A stretch of DNA of 20,225 nucleotides. It comes from a virus. Made by a program: the position numbers and the translations under genes. The notes under the pieces were generated by a model. That model had not been told where the DNA came from. It ran no database searches and saw nothing but the letters and a program-made list of their open reading frames with translations. Shown here in pieces: positions 6,027-9,703 of the stretch (positions are counted from its first letter, which is position 1; every line of letters begins with the position of its first letter). The stretch spans positions 1 to 20,225 of the IMG/VR virus record IMGVR_UViG_3300042540_000673; one strand, written 5' to 3'.

Positions 6027-6305
6027 GTGGCGACCAAACTCGACATCGACGTGCCAGCCCTGTTTCGGCTTTGGAACGACCACAGCCTGACCGTGTCGGA
6101 GGTGGCGCGAGACCTCGGCGTGTCGGATCGCCACGTCCGCCGGTTGGCGCGTGACCGCGCCTTGCCAGAGCGGCCATACTGCTGGAGGCATACATCGGCG
6201 ACTGCCGAGGAGCTTGAGGACGAGGACGGGGCTGAGACGTTGGAGTTGAGCCCCTACGTGAAACGGCGGATCGAGCTACTGAAGCTGGGGCCGTACGCAG
6301 AGTAA
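6027..6305 (+). CDS. HTH DNA-binding protein (GcrA/Hin-like helix-turn-helix)
   Basis: I prefer GTG 6027 to the in-frame TTG 6021 because GGAGG (6015-6019) is spaced properly only for 6027. The 92-residue product has a single HTH: FRLWNDHSLTVSEVARDLGVSDRHVRRLARDRALPER, a layout 'LWxxxLTxxEVAxxLGVSxxxVxRLxxxxxLPxR' that resembles GcrA-type and resolvase-type HTHs. An acidic region (EELEDEDGAE) and a basic C-terminus follow. A second protein of the same layout is encoded at 10227-10517, so these look like paralogous phage regulators. It sits immediately upstream of a non-coding region rich in palindromes, which could hold its operators. Confidence 0.7.
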   Translation: MATKLDIDVPALFRLWNDHSLTVSEVARDLGVSDRHVRRLARDRALPERPYCWRHTSATAEELEDEDGAETLELSPYVKRRIELLKLGPYAE

Positions 6306-6312
6306 ACGAACA

Positions 6313-6373
6313 GCGCCCCCGGCGGGCAGGCACCGCTCCGATAAAGCGGCCCGCCGAACCCGCCGGGGTGCGC
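6313..6373 (+). promoter_or_regulatory. GC-rich structured hairpin with alternative pairing
   Basis: The left arm GCGCCCCCGGCGGG (6313-6326) pairs with CCCGCCGGGGTGCGC (6359-6373): 14 base pairs with one bulged T. Inside lies a second stem, CCGCT (6333-6337) with AGCGG (6345-6349). A competing 8-bp helix, CGGCGGGC (6320-6327) with GCCCGCCG (6349-6356), excludes the outer stem. No T-run follows, so it is not a standard intrinsic terminator. It starts eight bases after the HTH gene stop and may be an attenuator, mRNA stabiliser or DNA cruciform. Confidence 0.55.
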
Positions 6374-6478
6374 CTATCAAACGTATGGGAAAACCGACGG
6401 GAAGCGGGGGATTACAAATATGAGTTGGGAGGCGACGTTCTCGGGAAAAACTGTTACACGCCAGAAAAACCTGTAATG

Positions 6479-6490
6479 TCCCGAGCGGGA
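6479..6490. promoter_or_regulatory. Operator-like near-palindrome 1 (TCCCGAGCGGGA)
   Basis: TCCCG-AG-CGGGA has perfectly complementary 5-base arms. Related sites follow at 6552-6561 (CCCGATCGGG, a perfect palindrome) and 6674-6688 (TTCCCGAGCGGAAAA, arms CCG and CGG extended by imperfect T/A arms). Three such sites in about 210 non-coding bases downstream of an HTH gene suggest binding sites for a dimeric regulator. No protein can be assigned from sequence alone. Confidence 0.35.
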
Positions 6491-6594
6491 ACAGCCGGCG
6501 CGAAAATGGGAGACGCTGCCGGCGCGGAGTGGCGAAACTGGCGGCGATAGTCCCGATCGGGCATCAGTTACGCGATTGAGGCGATTCAAGGAAA

Positions 6595-6661
6595 CGACCG
6601 ATTTTCCGCCGAAATCGCATTTCCGGCGTCGGAAAATGCTGATATCGCGGAAAATCGGTCG
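6595..6661. repeat. 67-base interrupted inverted repeat (15-bp perfect outer stem)
   Basis: The left arm CGACCGATTTTCCGC (6595-6609) is exactly complementary to GCGGAAAATCGGTCG (6647-6661). After a 7/7-base internal loop, an inner stem forms from GCATTTCCG and CGGAAAATGC around a GCGT loop. The TTTTCCG/CGGAAAA motif therefore occurs in four arms. The element ends 43 bases before the first cassette boundary. It could be an origin or partition element, a protein-binding cruciform, a structured RNA or a small mobile palindromic repeat. Confidence 0.7.
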
Positions 6662-6706
6662 GAACCAACGGCTTTCCCGAGCGGAAAAGACGCAGAACGC
6701 GTGGTT

Positions 6707-6937
6707 ATGCGTGAACGACATTTGATGGAGCGACGGCGGCAAGTGACGCGACTAAGGAAATCGGAAAGCGCGCCGAGAGTACGAGGCCGGGATGATCTCC
6801 CGGTGACGCCACTCCTTGCCTCTTGTCGGTGGGTGATGCGACGTATGGCCGAGCCTCCGAGCCGGGCGGGCAAGGCGAACCGGCGGGGCTCAACACCGTC
6901 GCCGCAATCTGGTAAGCGGCATTTTTCATTCGCATAA
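6707..6937 (+). CDS. Doubtful ORF of the first cassette
   Basis: ATG 6707 lies inside the cassette boundary GTTATGC, and the TAA stop lies inside the R'' box GCATAAC, the same stop-in-R'' arrangement seen in later cassettes. The encoded 76 residues are extremely Arg-rich (RERHLMERRRQVTRLRKSE at the start) with no recognisable domain, and no good ribosome-binding site is visible. Other frames and the minus strand are also partly open, so the protein may be spurious and this cassette may be non-coding. An array of this kind can hold cassettes without genes. The boundary evidence supports the cassette, not the protein. Confidence 0.3.
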   Translation: MRERHLMERRRQVTRLRKSESAPRVRGRDDLPVTPLLASCRWVMRRMAEPPSRAGKANRRGSTPSPQSGKRHFSFA

Positions 6938-7020
6938 CGCTTGCGATCAGCGGCATCGAACACAGGAGATTGACACATGAGCGACGGTGATGAGATGTCC
7001 GCTGCATCGCGTGGTTCTAC
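6932..7020 (+). repeat. attC-like site 0, contains start of next gene
   Basis: R'' is GCATAAC (6932-6938) and L'' is CGATCAGCGG; on the right, CCGCTGCATCG is complementary to it with one extra base, then R' GTTCTAC (7014-7020). The stem continues as CATC/GATG, with an extrahelical T before CCGCTG. AGGAG (6964-6968) and ATG 6977 lie within the site, so the next gene's first codons are attC-encoded. The 19 bases from 6936 (AACGCTTGCGATCAGCGGC) recur exactly at 7271 and 7639. Confidence 0.8.
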
Positions 7021-7270
7021 GGACTGGATTGACGCGCAAGGATCAAAGGCCGAACGGCTGCATGATCTCGGAATGCTCGTCGGCTACATCTACTCGGCGG
7101 TAACAAACCTAGGGGACGCTATTTGCCTCGCCGAAGCGCTCCAACTTGTAGACGCGACAACGCTTGCAGCGATGAAGGCGGCCCTAGAAGCCCTGGACGC
7201 ACTGCCCTTGGGAGACTGCTCAAAGGCTCGCGTGGTAGAGGTTTTCAAGGAATGCGATGGGCGGCCGTAG
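6977..7270 (+). CDS. Cassette protein, 97 aa, hypothetical
   Basis: ATG 6977 is preceded by AGGAG at 6964-6968 and lies inside the attC-like site of the upstream cassette. The first residues, MSDGDEMSAASRG, are therefore supplied by attC, and the body (from STDWIDAQGSKAERL) by the cassette. The body is a helical, Leu/Ala-rich protein (LHDLGMLVGYIYSAVTNLGD, then LAAMKAALEALDAL) without signal peptide or known motif. The stop TAG falls within the R'' box GTAGAAC. I do not recognise the family. The leader pattern is shared with the genes at 8012, 8327 and 8691. Confidence 0.65.
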   Translation: MSDGDEMSAASRGSTDWIDAQGSKAERLHDLGMLVGYIYSAVTNLGDAICLAEALQLVDATTLAAMKAALEALDALPLGDCSKARVVEVFKECDGRP

Positions 7271-7357
7271 AACGCTTGCGATCAGCGGCCCGCGACCGCT
7301 GACGAAACTACAACCGGCAGACGGCATCGCGGGTCCGCTGCATCGTCTTGGTTAGGC
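7267..7357 (+). repeat. attC-like site 1 (classical, non-coding)
   Basis: R'' is GTAGAAC (7267-7273). L'' plus stem is CGATCAGCGGCCCGCGA, and the complementary right side is TCGCGGGTCCGCTGCATCG, with two unpaired bases (T after GGG, and C within GCATC). R' is GTTAGGC (7351-7357), which fits the GTTRRRY consensus. The stem has about 17 pairs. The apical loop holds CGCTGACGAAACTACAACCG and beyond. No start codon is read into the next cassette, because TTAGGC puts a TAG stop in the leader phase. Confidence 0.85.
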
Positions 7358-7364
7358 GACATTC

Positions 7365-7640
7365 ATGGGATGGTCCATCGACATTGAATCGGACCGCGAG
7401 ATTTCGGAACCCGAGATTGATGCCATTGTTCGGGAACTGCCGCAGCCGGTGCTTGGTGTGTTTCCAAGCAGGCAGGCGTGGGGTTGGTCGCTTGGCGTTG
7501 ACGCGAGATTATCGGGAAATACGCTTTCGTTGAGCGGGAGTTACTCAATGAGCGGGCGAATCGCGGAACTTGCGGCCGAGGCATTTGCAAGACGGCTTGA
7601 GAAACTCGGGCATACGGTGACGGTCGGGACGTTCGCCTAA
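7365..7640 (+). CDS. Cassette protein, 91 aa, hypothetical
   Basis: ATG 7365 lies 14 bases inside the cassette, so this gene is fully cassette-encoded, unlike its neighbours. No clear Shine-Dalgarno precedes it. The protein begins MGWSIDIESDREISEPEIDA and continues with alternating beta-like segments (WGWSLGVDARLSGNTLSLSG), then a helix (IAELAAEAFARRLEKLGH) and a final strand (TVTVGTFA). This is a plausible small alpha/beta domain of about 90 residues. I recall similar short proteins from environmental integron cassettes, but no function is known to me. The TAA stop lies in the R'' box GCCTAAC. Confidence 0.65.
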   Translation: MGWSIDIESDREISEPEIDAIVRELPQPVLGVFPSRQAWGWSLGVDARLSGNTLSLSGSYSMSGRIAELAAEAFARRLEKLGHTVTVGTFA

Positions 7641-7685
7641 CGCTTGCGATCAGCGGCGCAGTCCGCTGCATCGTCTTGGTTATGT
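7635..7685 (+). repeat. attC-like site 2 (compact, 51 bases)
   Basis: R'' is GCCTAAC (7635-7641), L'' CGATCAGCGG, a very short loop (CGCAG plus T), L' CCGCTGCATCG with one extra C, and R' GTTATGT (7679-7685). Its right half, CCGCTGCATCGTCTTGGTTA, is identical to that of site 1. It is the shortest and cleanest site, close in size to minimal integron attC sites. Confidence 0.87.
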
Positions 7686-7710
7686 GAGCGTATGGAGACG
7701 GAAGAGCAAG

Positions 7711-7962
7711 ATGGCATACGAGACGGTTTCGCTTCAACAAATTCTGCGAGAGATCGCGAGCCGCACCGCCAGCGAGCAGGACGCCGACGCGATCCGGCTG
7801 GCGGCCGACACACTGGATACGATTACGTCTCGCCGCACGCTCACCGCAGCGGAGCGCGAGGCGATCTACAGGGCATCGCGGTACATCTCGCAGAACGATG
7901 CGTTTGAAGGGATGGCAGAGGACGCTGACACGCTAGACGCCCTGCTTGAGCGGACGAAGTAG
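7711..7962 (+). CDS. Cassette protein, 83 aa, '(T)LTxxEREA' helical type
   Basis: I chose ATG 7711 (MAYETVSLQQILREIASRTA) because a GGAAGAG-type sequence lies just upstream; GTG 7684 is an alternative in the same frame, only a few bases after the crossover. The protein is helical: SEQDADAIRLAADTLDTI, then RTLTAAEREAIYRASRYIS, ending TLDALLERTK. The ending and the LTAAEREAI segment resemble the protein at 8327-8665 (LTDKEREAL, GLLERTK), and their last 21 coding bases are nearly identical. The frame is open back through the crossover in the leader phase, so it could also be expressed as a leader fusion in another array position. The function is unknown. Confidence 0.6.
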   Translation: MAYETVSLQQILREIASRTASEQDADAIRLAADTLDTITSRRTLTAAEREAIYRASRYISQNDAFEGMAEDADTLDALLERTK

Positions 7963-7965
7963 ACC

Positions 7966-8055
7966 ACATAACACGGAAGATCAACAGCCGCGAACAAAGG
8001 AGGCGGCGACTATGAGCGACGAAAATGAGCGGTCTGTTGCATCGGCTGGTTCTGT
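7966..8055 (+). repeat. attC-like site 3, contains start of next gene
   Basis: R'' is ACATAAC (7966-7972). GATCAACAG pairs with CTGTTGCATC, again with one unpaired C. The stem continues CCGC/GCGG with an extrahelical T, and R' is GTTCTGT (8049-8055). The L boxes differ in sequence from sites 0-2 but keep complementarity, so pairing is conserved rather than sequence. GGAGG (7999-8003) and ATG 8012 lie in the loop. Confidence 0.78.
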
Positions 8056-8296
8056 GGGTGAAGTGCTGGCGAAAGGCATCGCGGACATCATTCGGATTGC
8101 AGCCGAGCCGGACTGGATTCCGGTGACGGAGCGGTGCCCGGCCAAGCACTTGATGGTGCTGGTGTGGAGCCAGAGCGACGGCCTACACCTCGCCCATTTG
8201 GACTTGTGGGGGCAATGGCGAGACGCGGACGAGAACTTCGGCAAGAAGATCACTCACTGGATGCCGCTTCCGGCACCGCCAACGGCTCGCAAGTAG
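8012..8296 (+). CDS. Cassette protein, DUF551-like, 94 aa
   Basis: GGAGG (7999-8003) precedes ATG 8012, both inside the upstream attC-like site. Residues 1-13 (MSDENERSVASAG) are attC-encoded; the remainder is cassette-encoded. The body has the DUF551 signature: DWIPVTERCPAKHLMVLVW in the middle and the C-terminal ITHWMPLPAPP. DUF551 proteins are small phage and prophage proteins of unknown function, usually read as 'WIPVxERLP...VLVW...THWMPLPxPP'. A close relative is encoded at 8691-8966, two cassettes later. The stop is followed directly by the R'' box ACAGAAC. Confidence 0.75.
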   Translation: MSDENERSVASAGSVGEVLAKGIADIIRIAAEPDWIPVTERCPAKHLMVLVWSQSDGLHLAHLDLWGQWRDADENFGKKITHWMPLPAPPTARK

Positions 8297-8298
8297 CC

Positions 8299-8388
8299 AC
8301 AGAACACGCAGGATCAGGAGCATCGCATGATTGACGAGACTACACCGCAGGACGGCAAGGCGATGTCTCTTGCATCCGCTGGTTCTCA
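8299..8388 (+). repeat. attC-like site 4, Shine-Dalgarno inside the stem
   Basis: R'' is ACAGAAC (8299-8305). The stem GGATCAGGAGCATCGC (8311-8326) pairs with GCGATGTCTCTTGCATCC (8361-8378), leaving one T and one C unpaired and one G-T pair. R' is GTTCTCA (8382-8388). AGGAG (8316-8320) is part of the stem, and ATG 8327 is the first triplet of the loop. A folded transcript would therefore hide the ribosome-binding site. Confidence 0.8.
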
Positions 8389-8665
8389 GCCGGAGGCGTG
8401 GGCCGTCGAGTGGAAGGGCGACACAAAGATTGACCGCAGTACGGTCTGCTACACCGAGGACGCTGCGAAGCGAAAGGCTGACGAGTGTCCGGGGTTGGAT
8501 GGCGTTGCCGTCCCGCTCTACCGCGCGCCCACGCTCACCGACAAGGAGCGGGAGGCGCTGAGGAAGGTGCTGCGGCGAGTGCGAGAAGACTACTTCGCGG
8601 GGCGTTTTGCCGACAGTGTGGAGGTCGCCGCCGTGATCGACGGCCTGCTTGAGCGGACGAAGTGA
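8327..8665 (+). CDS. Cassette protein, 112 aa, 'PLYRAPTLTDKEREAL' type
   Basis: ATG 8327 follows AGGAG at 8316-8320. The leader MIDETTPQDGKAMSLASAG is attC-encoded; the body from SQPEAWAVEWKGD is cassette-encoded. The body has two parts: an N-terminal region (AWAVEWKGDTKIDRSTVCYT, then AKRKADECPGLDGVAVPLYR) and a helical C-terminal region (PTLTDKEREALRKVLRRVRE to GLLERTK). The layout 'WAV... A...A... VVPLYR.P.LT..EREA' is one I associate with planctomycete small proteins, without certainty. The C-terminal region resembles the protein at 7711-7962. The stop TGA is the start of the R'' box TGAGAAC. The function is unknown. Confidence 0.7.
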   Translation: MIDETTPQDGKAMSLASAGSQPEAWAVEWKGDTKIDRSTVCYTEDAAKRKADECPGLDGVAVPLYRAPTLTDKEREALRKVLRRVREDYFAGRFADSVEVAAVIDGLLERTK

Positions 8666-8752
8666 GAACGTGAAGGATCAGGAGCATCGCATGAGTGATT
8701 CAACTACACCGCAGGACTCGGCAGCGATGCCTCCTGCATCCGCTGGTTCTGT
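8663..8752 (+). repeat. attC-like site 5, Shine-Dalgarno inside the stem
   Basis: R'' is TGAGAAC (8663-8669). The stem GGATCAGGAGCATCGC (8675-8690) is the same 16 bases as in site 4 and pairs fully with GCGATGCCTCCTGCATCC (8725-8742), leaving two unpaired C bases. R' is GTTCTGT (8746-8752). AGGAG (8680-8684) lies in the stem and ATG 8691 opens the loop. The loop shares ACTACACCGCAGGAC with site 4. Confidence 0.8.
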
Positions 8753-8966
8753 GGCGAACAGTCAAGCGACCCTTGACCGTTGGATTCCAGTGACGGAGCG
8801 ACTGCCTGATATTGGGCAGCACGTTGCGGCGCTGACAGCCGGCGGGCGACGGTTCGTCGGCTACACGGCCACGCTATACAGTCGCCATTGCTGGATTGAT
8901 CGCGGGAATGAAGTGGCAGTCACCCACTGGGTGCCGCTCCCAGCCCTGCCAACGGAAGACAAGTAG
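8691..8966 (+). CDS. Cassette protein, DUF551-like, 91 aa
   Basis: ATG 8691 follows AGGAG (8680-8684). The leader MSDSTTPQDSAAMPPASAG comes from the attC-like site, and the cassette body starts at SVANSQATLDRW. The DUF551 pattern is clear: RWIPVTERLPDIGQHVAAL, then a strand-rich middle (RRFVGYTATLYSRHCWIDRG) and VTHWVPLPALP. It is a paralogue of the product at 8012-8296, sharing WIPVTER and THWxPLPAxP but differing strongly in between. The stop TAG precedes R'' ACAGAAC (8969-8975), the last recognisable box of the array. The role of DUF551 is unknown. Confidence 0.75.
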   Translation: MSDSTTPQDSAAMPPASAGSVANSQATLDRWIPVTERLPDIGQHVAALTAGGRRFVGYTATLYSRHCWIDRGNEVAVTHWVPLPALPTEDK

Positions 8967-8981
8967 CCACAGAACCACATT

Positions 8982-9083
8982 TATACGGCCCCGTATAACG
9001 CACCCCCTGCCGTATAACGCGCCGCCGAATCGACGCCAGCCTGCGGCGTGACGGGGAAAGCCGGCGTTATGCGGGGCCGTATA
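8982..9083. repeat. Large inverted repeat closing the cassette array
   Basis: TATACGGCCCCGTATAACGC (8982-9001) pairs with GCGTTATGCGGGGCCGTATA (9064-9083), 20 positions with one G-T pair. A third related copy, GCCGTATAACGC, lies at 9009-9020, and inner GGCGT/ACGCC arms could form further stems. It starts seven bases after the last R'' box, where the L'' and L' boxes of a seventh attC would be expected but are absent. It may be a degenerate attC, an insertion that ended the array, or a bidirectional RNA hairpin. Confidence 0.7.
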
Positions 9084-9155
9084 AGACGGCTTTCTTGACG
9101 CGTCTGGCATTCTGCCAGTGACCCGGCGGACACCGGGCGCACCGCAGGACGTGCC
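9084..9155. other. Short non-coding stretch with two small hairpins
   Basis: CTGGCA-TTC-TGCCAG (9104-9118) and CCCGG-N6-CCGGG (9122-9137) are perfect small stems between the large inverted repeat and the next gene. TTGACG (9095-9100) resembles a -35 box, but no matching -10 box is seen at the right distance. No T-run suggests a terminator. Confidence 0.35.
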
Positions 9156-9305
9156 ATGTCGCCCTCGCTAATCATCCTCACGGGCGCCATCTACCTCGTG
9201 GTCGCTGCGGATCTGGCCTGGCATGGCAAGCCGGGGCTGGGCCTGGCGTACCTCGGGTATGCCTTCGCCAACGTCGGTCTGTATATCGCAGCGAGGGGCG
9301 AATGA
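9156..9305 (+). CDS. Small membrane protein with two hydrophobic segments, 49 aa
   Basis: The short frame starts at ATG 9156 and ends with TGA overlapping the RusA start by ATGA. It encodes MSPS followed by a hydrophobic helix (LIILTGAIYLVVAADLAW), a short polar turn (HGKPG) and a second hydrophobic helix (LGLAYLGYAFANVGLYIAA), ending RGE. The two-helix hairpin layout and the ATGA coupling make it a credible phage gene, even though it is very short. Similar tiny two-helix proteins precede RusA-like genes in other phages as far as I recall. A holin-like role is possible, but its place in the DNA-metabolism block argues against it. Confidence 0.65.
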   Translation: MSPSLIILTGAIYLVVAADLAWHGKPGLGLAYLGYAFANVGLYIAARGE

Positions 9306-9703
9306 ACCCGGTGTCGTTCGTGGTGCTAGGCGAGCCCGTCCCGCAGCCGAGGCCGAGAGTCTCGACTCGGGGCGGGTTCGCCCGCGCCTACGTGCCAGCG
9401 AAGCATCCGGTCCATGCCTACCGCCAGGCTGTCGCCGCAGCTGCTAGAGCGGCTGGCCTGCGAGCGGTGGACCATGCCGTGCAGGTTGAGATCATCGCCG
9501 AGTTCGCCCGGCCGCCGTCGCACATGAACAAGAAGGGCGTGAAGGCTACTGCCCCCAAGTGGCCGCGAGCCGACGCCGACAACATCGCCAAGTCCGCGCT
9601 TGACTCACTCGGTCCAATCATCGGAGACGACGCTCAGGTGTGCCGGCTCGTCGTCTCGAAGATGTACGGCACGACCAGCAGAACGGTGGTAACCATCACA
9701 TGA
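9302..9703 (+). CDS. rusA: RusA-family Holliday junction resolvase
   Basis: The 133-residue product matches RusA endodeoxyribonucleases in length and motifs. It begins with the family lead-in VSFVVLGEPVPQPRPRVSTRG and contains the catalytic acidic cluster PRADADNIAKSALDSLGPIIGDDAQV, which corresponds to 'KPDxDNxxKxxxDALxxxxxxDDxQV' with the metal-binding aspartates. RusA resolves four-way junctions made during phage recombination or late replication, and can trim DNA before packaging. It is coupled by ATGA at both ends, so it is translated with the membrane protein and the methyltransferase. The call is strong. Confidence 0.9.
   Translation: MNPVSFVVLGEPVPQPRPRVSTRGGFARAYVPAKHPVHAYRQAVAAAARAAGLRAVDHAVQVEIIAEFARPPSHMNKKGVKATAPKWPRADADNIAKSALDSLGPIIGDDAQVCRLVVSKMYGTTSRTVVTIT

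Follow-up and report, generated by a model that had tools for sequence, protein, structure and literature searches.

An apparently inverted, integron-type cassette array with a candidate attI-like edge in a phage lineage

The stretch of DNA analysed here (the window), which is the entire 20,225 bp of virus record IMGVR_UViG_3300042540_000673, contains a real cassette array. The genes of the window include those for a helicase, a methyltransferase, DnaN, RusA, terminase and portal, and it was assigned to a phage because TerL and portal are present. We consider it very probable, on comparative evidence, that this uncultivated phage lineage carries an integron-type platform, in which an attI-like site is joined to variable attC-first cassettes, recombination takes place in AAC boxes, and the enzyme is likely a host IntI. 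The attI-like site (about 8966-9088) would be fixed with a variable cassette array attached to it, and each cassette would have its attC site in front of a small ORF, an order opposite to the usual one. The attI-like site and attC would recombine in the AAC boxes, probably at AA/C on the gene strand, equivalent to G/TT on the other, and new cassettes would therefore enter beside rusA. The cassettes share the reading direction of dnaN and rusA and could be expressed by read-through, with the recombinase presumably supplied in trans by a host IntI. A scan of positions 6200-9400 that was confined to sigma-70-like promoters, among the several promoter types, returned zero sites. The features of the locus are collected in Table 1.

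Table 1. Features of the cassette locus and its neighbours; cassettes are given as predicted in the inverted reading (AA/C to AA/C).
Feature	Start	End	Strand	Details
DnaN-type sliding clamp	4909	6024	+	left neighbour of cassette locus
Small HTH protein	6021	6305	+	between DnaN gene and array
Distal remnant	6704	6937	+	end boxes 6704/6938 agree; no attC core on left; ORF 6701-6937 doubtful
attC site 1	6932	7020	+	AAC box 6936-6938, GTT box 7014-7016; 49.8 bits; holds start codon of next ORF
Cassette 1	6938	7272	+	attC core, then ORF 6977-7270, 97 aa
attC site 2	7267	7357	+	AAC 7271-7273, GTT 7351-7353; 39.2 bits; fold z -3.6
Cassette 2	7273	7640	+	attC core, then ORF 7365-7640, 91 aa
attC site 3, short form	7635	7685	+	AAC 7639-7641, GTT 7679-7681; 41.5 bits
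Cassette 3	7641	7971	+	attC core, then ORF 7711-7962, 83 aa; alternative GTG start 7684
attC site 4	7966	8055	+	AAC 7970-7972, GTT 8049-8051; 48.2 bits
Cassette 4	7972	8304	+	attC core, then ORF 8012-8296, 94 aa, DUF551; start codon within attC
attC site 5	8299	8388	+	AAC 8303-8305, GTT 8382-8384; 47.2 bits
Cassette 5	8305	8668	+	attC core, then ORF 8327-8665, 112 aa; start codon within attC
attC site 6	8663	8752	+	AAC 8667-8669, GTT 8746-8748; 53 bits
Cassette 6	8669	8974	+	attC core, then ORF 8691-8966, 91 aa, DUF551; start codon within attC
End-box pairs				6704/6938, 7014/7273, 7351/7641, 7679/7972, 8049/8305, 8382/8669, 8746/8975
attI-like site (candidate)	8966	9088		end box GCCACAGAAC, inverted box TTTATACGG, more CCGTATAAC boxes
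RusA	9302	9703	+	right neighbour of cassette locus

A mechanical scan of all 20,225 bases for an AAC and a GTT box enclosing a 4+6 bp stem in which one base is extrahelical returned exactly six sites, all on the + strand between 6932 and 8752. The unpaired base that the original prediction had noted in the stems was thus recovered in 6/6 sites. Shuffling the 2.7-kb region 100 times gave no site in 92 cases and one site in 8, i.e. about 0.08 expected by chance. The covariance-model search that had been proposed as a check was performed with a model built from phage sites and recovered the six window sites at E values of 1e-11 to 7e-8, although these matches share a training family with the model and are not independent of it; the sole further match in the window was weak (6692-6710, 14 bits, E 0.49). 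The same model missed the sites of R100 and TJE1 at E up to 1, and a geometric rule was used there instead. Across 29 phage sites, 98.1% of the stem cells were paired, compared to 27-47% in slid controls, and 41 cells showed compensatory double changes against 12.5 after shuffling. When folded as single strands, all six window sites formed a stem in which one base bulged out. The fold energies on the gene strand ranged from z -3.6 to about 0 across the six sites, i.e. they were unusual in some sites only, and fold energy alone is consequently indecisive. Two features count against the platform reading: the extrahelical base is a C in 54 of 58 phage sites, and many end boxes read GTTCT rather than GTTRRRY. 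An Rfam search at the gathering threshold gave zero matches, and when the attC sites were compared one by one with phages and plasmids by blastn, only short, chance-like matches emerged. As in a CALIN, the window holds at least two attC sites with R and L boxes and an extrahelical base.

Seven complementary GTT...AAC end-box pairs delimit the array and match over 7-10 nt, in line with the earlier claim that the 5' boundary box of each of seven units is the reverse complement of the unit's own far box; the six attC-like sites and seven short units described between the clamp/HTH genes and RusA are likewise present. In related viral loci, the two end boxes of a cassette agree at 7/7 positions in 80 of 105 cassettes, compared to 8-26 when partners are permuted. 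Complementary end boxes and variation as whole units, both expected of a CALIN, are found. The description of all seven units as attC-bounded cassettes holds for the box pairs, but 6704-6938 has no attC core on its left and the box at 8975 is followed by attI-like sequence. In combination, the scan, the stem covariation and the own-box matching bear out the proposal that the early region of this phage holds a cassette array of the integron type.

Of 95 cassettes, 86 have their longest ORF on the gene strand, and among the 92 ORFs reaching 50 aa or more, 55 start inside the attC core, mostly in one frame. The cores supply such ORFs with a start codon and an N-terminal leader, e.g. MSDENERSVASAGS (at 6977, 8012, 8327 and 8691 in the window, and in many related loci), and similar leaders recur in front of different protein bodies. 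Most of 67 cassette proteins had no Pfam match; the matches were to DUF551 (eight proteins), an N6/N4 methylase (one) and a C5 methylase (one, weak).

The orientation of the sites relative to the genes was examined via the position of the extrahelical base. When the "bottom" strand of a standard attC site folds, the extrahelical bases come to lie on its 3' arm, and in 6/6 window sites this base is found on the 3' arm of the gene strand. A geometric rule whose spacing was fixed at about 9 nt from AAC and 8-9 nt to GTT detected the aadA1 attC of R100, and at the same spacing three sites of phage TJE1, all on the strand opposite the genes, whereas the six window sites were detected on the gene strand. 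Because the bottom-strand anatomy falls on the gene strand here and on the opposite strand in R100 and TJE1, the window sites are reversed relative to their genes. The usual though not absolute CALIN order, with the ORF followed by an attC in the same orientation, is not seen in the window, where attC lies 5' of the ORF. At bacterial loci matching the phage-trained model, found in Methylomirabilota genomes, the right-hand ORF is mostly on the other strand, which is the usual arrangement.

Cassettes common to two different arrays keep the upstream core and usually not the downstream one, and their identity begins and ends at or beside AAC boxes. Cassette 1 shares 183 bp of its body with L009 at 99.5% identity, and the bodies of cassettes 4 and 5 are each 99.6% identical to a cassette in L009 and L007, respectively; the table of shared cassettes was read case by case and not as a statistic, as some pairs fall on noise clusters. 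An exception to the unit model is the comparison of L007 with window cassette 5, which differ in the 5' half of the attC core. Judged from these alignments, each attC belongs to the ORF downstream of it, and the units start and stop at AAC boxes.

Related phages provide further comparisons of whole arrays. From the array edge rightwards, 9786 bp of the window match contig L009 at 99.65% identity, but the arrays of the two differ, and the cassette at 8669-8974 is 100% identical over 306 bp in both while being placed beside the attI-like edge in the window and internally in L009. Similarly, two flanks, one of 1077 bp (99.0% identity) and one of 571 bp (99.1%), are common to L060 and L072 and overlap by AGAAC in L060; at this AGAAC, L072 has 582 bp extra, comprising two cassettes with two attC sites. 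L060, one of five dnaN relatives with downstream sequence but no model match that were read, has the attI-like edge and no attC. L010 and L013 have three cassettes in common at 99-100% identity, in different order, in backbones about 69-72% identical. In total, 36 dnaN relatives yielded 57 covariance-model matches, all on the dnaN strand, and many of these relatives have an array downstream of dnaN. As aligned, the natural variation fits gain, loss and relocation of whole cassettes. The expectation that single cassettes would differ between related phages was thereby borne out (L009, L060/L072), with breakpoints at AAC and not at the predicted G/TT.

At 8976 the array adjoins the attI-like site. 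In 26 arrays the last AAC is followed by similar sequence, mostly starting with CAGT, AAGT or CACA, followed by an inverted box ending near CGG and by further TATAAC-like boxes. When two edge patterns were scanned without reference to attC, most matches with enough sequence had an attC 200-450 bp upstream, the exceptions being L126/L129 and L138, with the nearest detected attC farther away. A presumable resemblance to attI1 lies in an L-like box located within a few bases of the crossover. By its sequence and position, the right edge of the array is a candidate attI-like site. It contains a long inverted repeat (8981-9001/9064-9084; 21 bp, 95%, spacer 62 nt), which folds strongly on both strands and could be regulatory or part of the attI-like site. 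A separate inverted-repeat element with 28-nt arms is located at 6560-6694 and is 94% identical over 136 bp to positions 2655-2790 of L015, where the copy sits between two attC sites of the other phage's array; it looks like a mobile palindrome and not an attC.

The enzyme was sought in the window and in 50 related viral records, many of which are fragments. No intI (TIGR02249) match above the family cut-off was found in this set, only three weak partial ones, and intI beside attI, the arrangement that characterizes an integron, was likewise not seen. Scanning viral contigs with two IntI seed proteins yielded 16 loci, none convincingly matching this attC family (best E 0.31). Given the lack of an integron integrase among the related viral records examined, the likeliest enzyme would be a host IntI that acts in trans while the phage infects or is lysogenic; the phages seem to swap small genes with an outside enzyme. 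Attempts to trace the host through phage and plasmid sequences similar to DnaN, TerL or the recombinase turned up distant matches at best. An exact 19-mer scan of bacterial genomes (257 billion bases) found six stretches, among which only one, from NC10 (L078), forms an attC-like hairpin; the 19-mer was rejected as a host marker, with roughly two exact matches expected by chance in 257 billion bases. In this NC10 MAG, positions 761-833 of L078 form a bacterial attC-like site nearly identical to the phage type, and close to the end of a contig the same genome has a C-terminal fragment resembling an integron integrase.

A variant that we regard as possible, though tentative, is a phage-specific integron with its own attI and its own attC-first cassette pool, exchanged mainly from phage to phage, with the enzyme being either the host's or a phage recombinase of a type that has so far gone unrecognised as an IntI. 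The more specific proposal that a tyrosine recombinase of the phages themselves (PF00589, about 300 aa) moves the cassettes draws on a PF00589 match at E 0.001 or better in 28 of the 50 viral records, but seems unlikely given the TIGR02249 result above; moreover, several array-bearing records of up to 47 kb have no PF00589 match, and about 9 kb separate the gene from the array in L033.

Phages recombine readily, and homologous recombination by phage or host functions could shuffle genes between attC cores that are similar enough to recombine and serve as homology anchors only; the L007/window break inside a core would fit such a process. However, the own end-box match in 80/105 cassettes, the extrahelical base and its spacing, and the whole-unit insertion at the 5-bp AGAAC junction of L060/L072 are all left unexplained, which makes this account very unlikely. 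It is highly improbable that the arrays are relics, assembled once in a bacterial integron and passively inherited since: phages about 99% identical in their flanks differ in their arrays, and near-identical cassettes (99-100%) occur in backbones about 70% identical, although the lack of an integrase in the records examined and the proposal that CALINs entered phages off target (Qi et al. 2023, PMC9892861) would suit such an origin. Finally, the canonical polarity assumed in the original prediction, with each cassette an ORF followed by attC and cut at G/TT of the gene strand, can hardly be right: the end-box complementarity is symmetric and alone compatible with both polarities, but the extrahelical base sits on the arm opposite to the canonical one, shared cassettes retain the upstream core, and the constant edge follows AAC, with the array-free/occupied junction (L060/L072) at AGAAC.

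If the platform reading is true, these phages keep a fixed address at which small early genes are swapped by integron chemistry without the usual integrase. Phage early genes could vary rapidly in this way, cassettes would have a route between phages and possibly hosts, and the locus would be a test case for whether attC works in front of a gene. The window/L009 and L060/L072 pairs would then be natural before-and-after comparisons of cassette events.

Several known systems resemble the locus in part. The mobile class 1 integron of plasmid R100 (aadA1) has an attI at one array edge, where the window has its candidate attI-like site, and its attC geometry is equal within a base. It differs in that intI1 adjoins attI1 and attC comes after a gene whose reading direction points away from attI; the aadA1 bottom strand has an extrahelical G, compared to mostly C in the phage sites. 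In spirochaete reverse integrons the integrase gene is the reversed part; they share with the window a change of orientation, which concerns the integrase gene there and the attC sites relative to the cassette ORFs here. Such spirochaete integrons in reverse orientation have been mentioned previously (PMC9668308). Integrons and CALINs in phages, including 17 CALINs, have also been described, and five of six assayed phage attC sites recombined with IntI1, both assayed Tetrasphaera phage TJE1 sites among them, whereas one from a Polaribacter phage did not (Qi et al. 2023, PMC9892861). TJE1 is similar to the window in having attC-bounded small genes, no integron integrase and equal attC geometry. 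Its three sites are on the strand opposite the genes, the usual polarity, and the conserved attI-like edge and the recurrence of the same locus in many related phages set the window apart from it. In Shewanella prophage M16-3 a CALIN separate from the prophage's complete integron is reported to begin with an attI (Qi et al. 2023, PMC9892861), comparable to the candidate attI-like edge of the window; this prophage, which is cryptic, differs in having an intact integron integrase. Neither attC-first cassettes nor an attI-like locus conserved across a phage lineage were described in the literature accessible to our search, which excluded many subscription papers. The claim that such a platform was undescribed for a phage replication module therefore falls with regard to phage CALINs as such, which have been known since 2023, and stands for the inverted, lineage-wide, attI-anchored form, which appears to be new.
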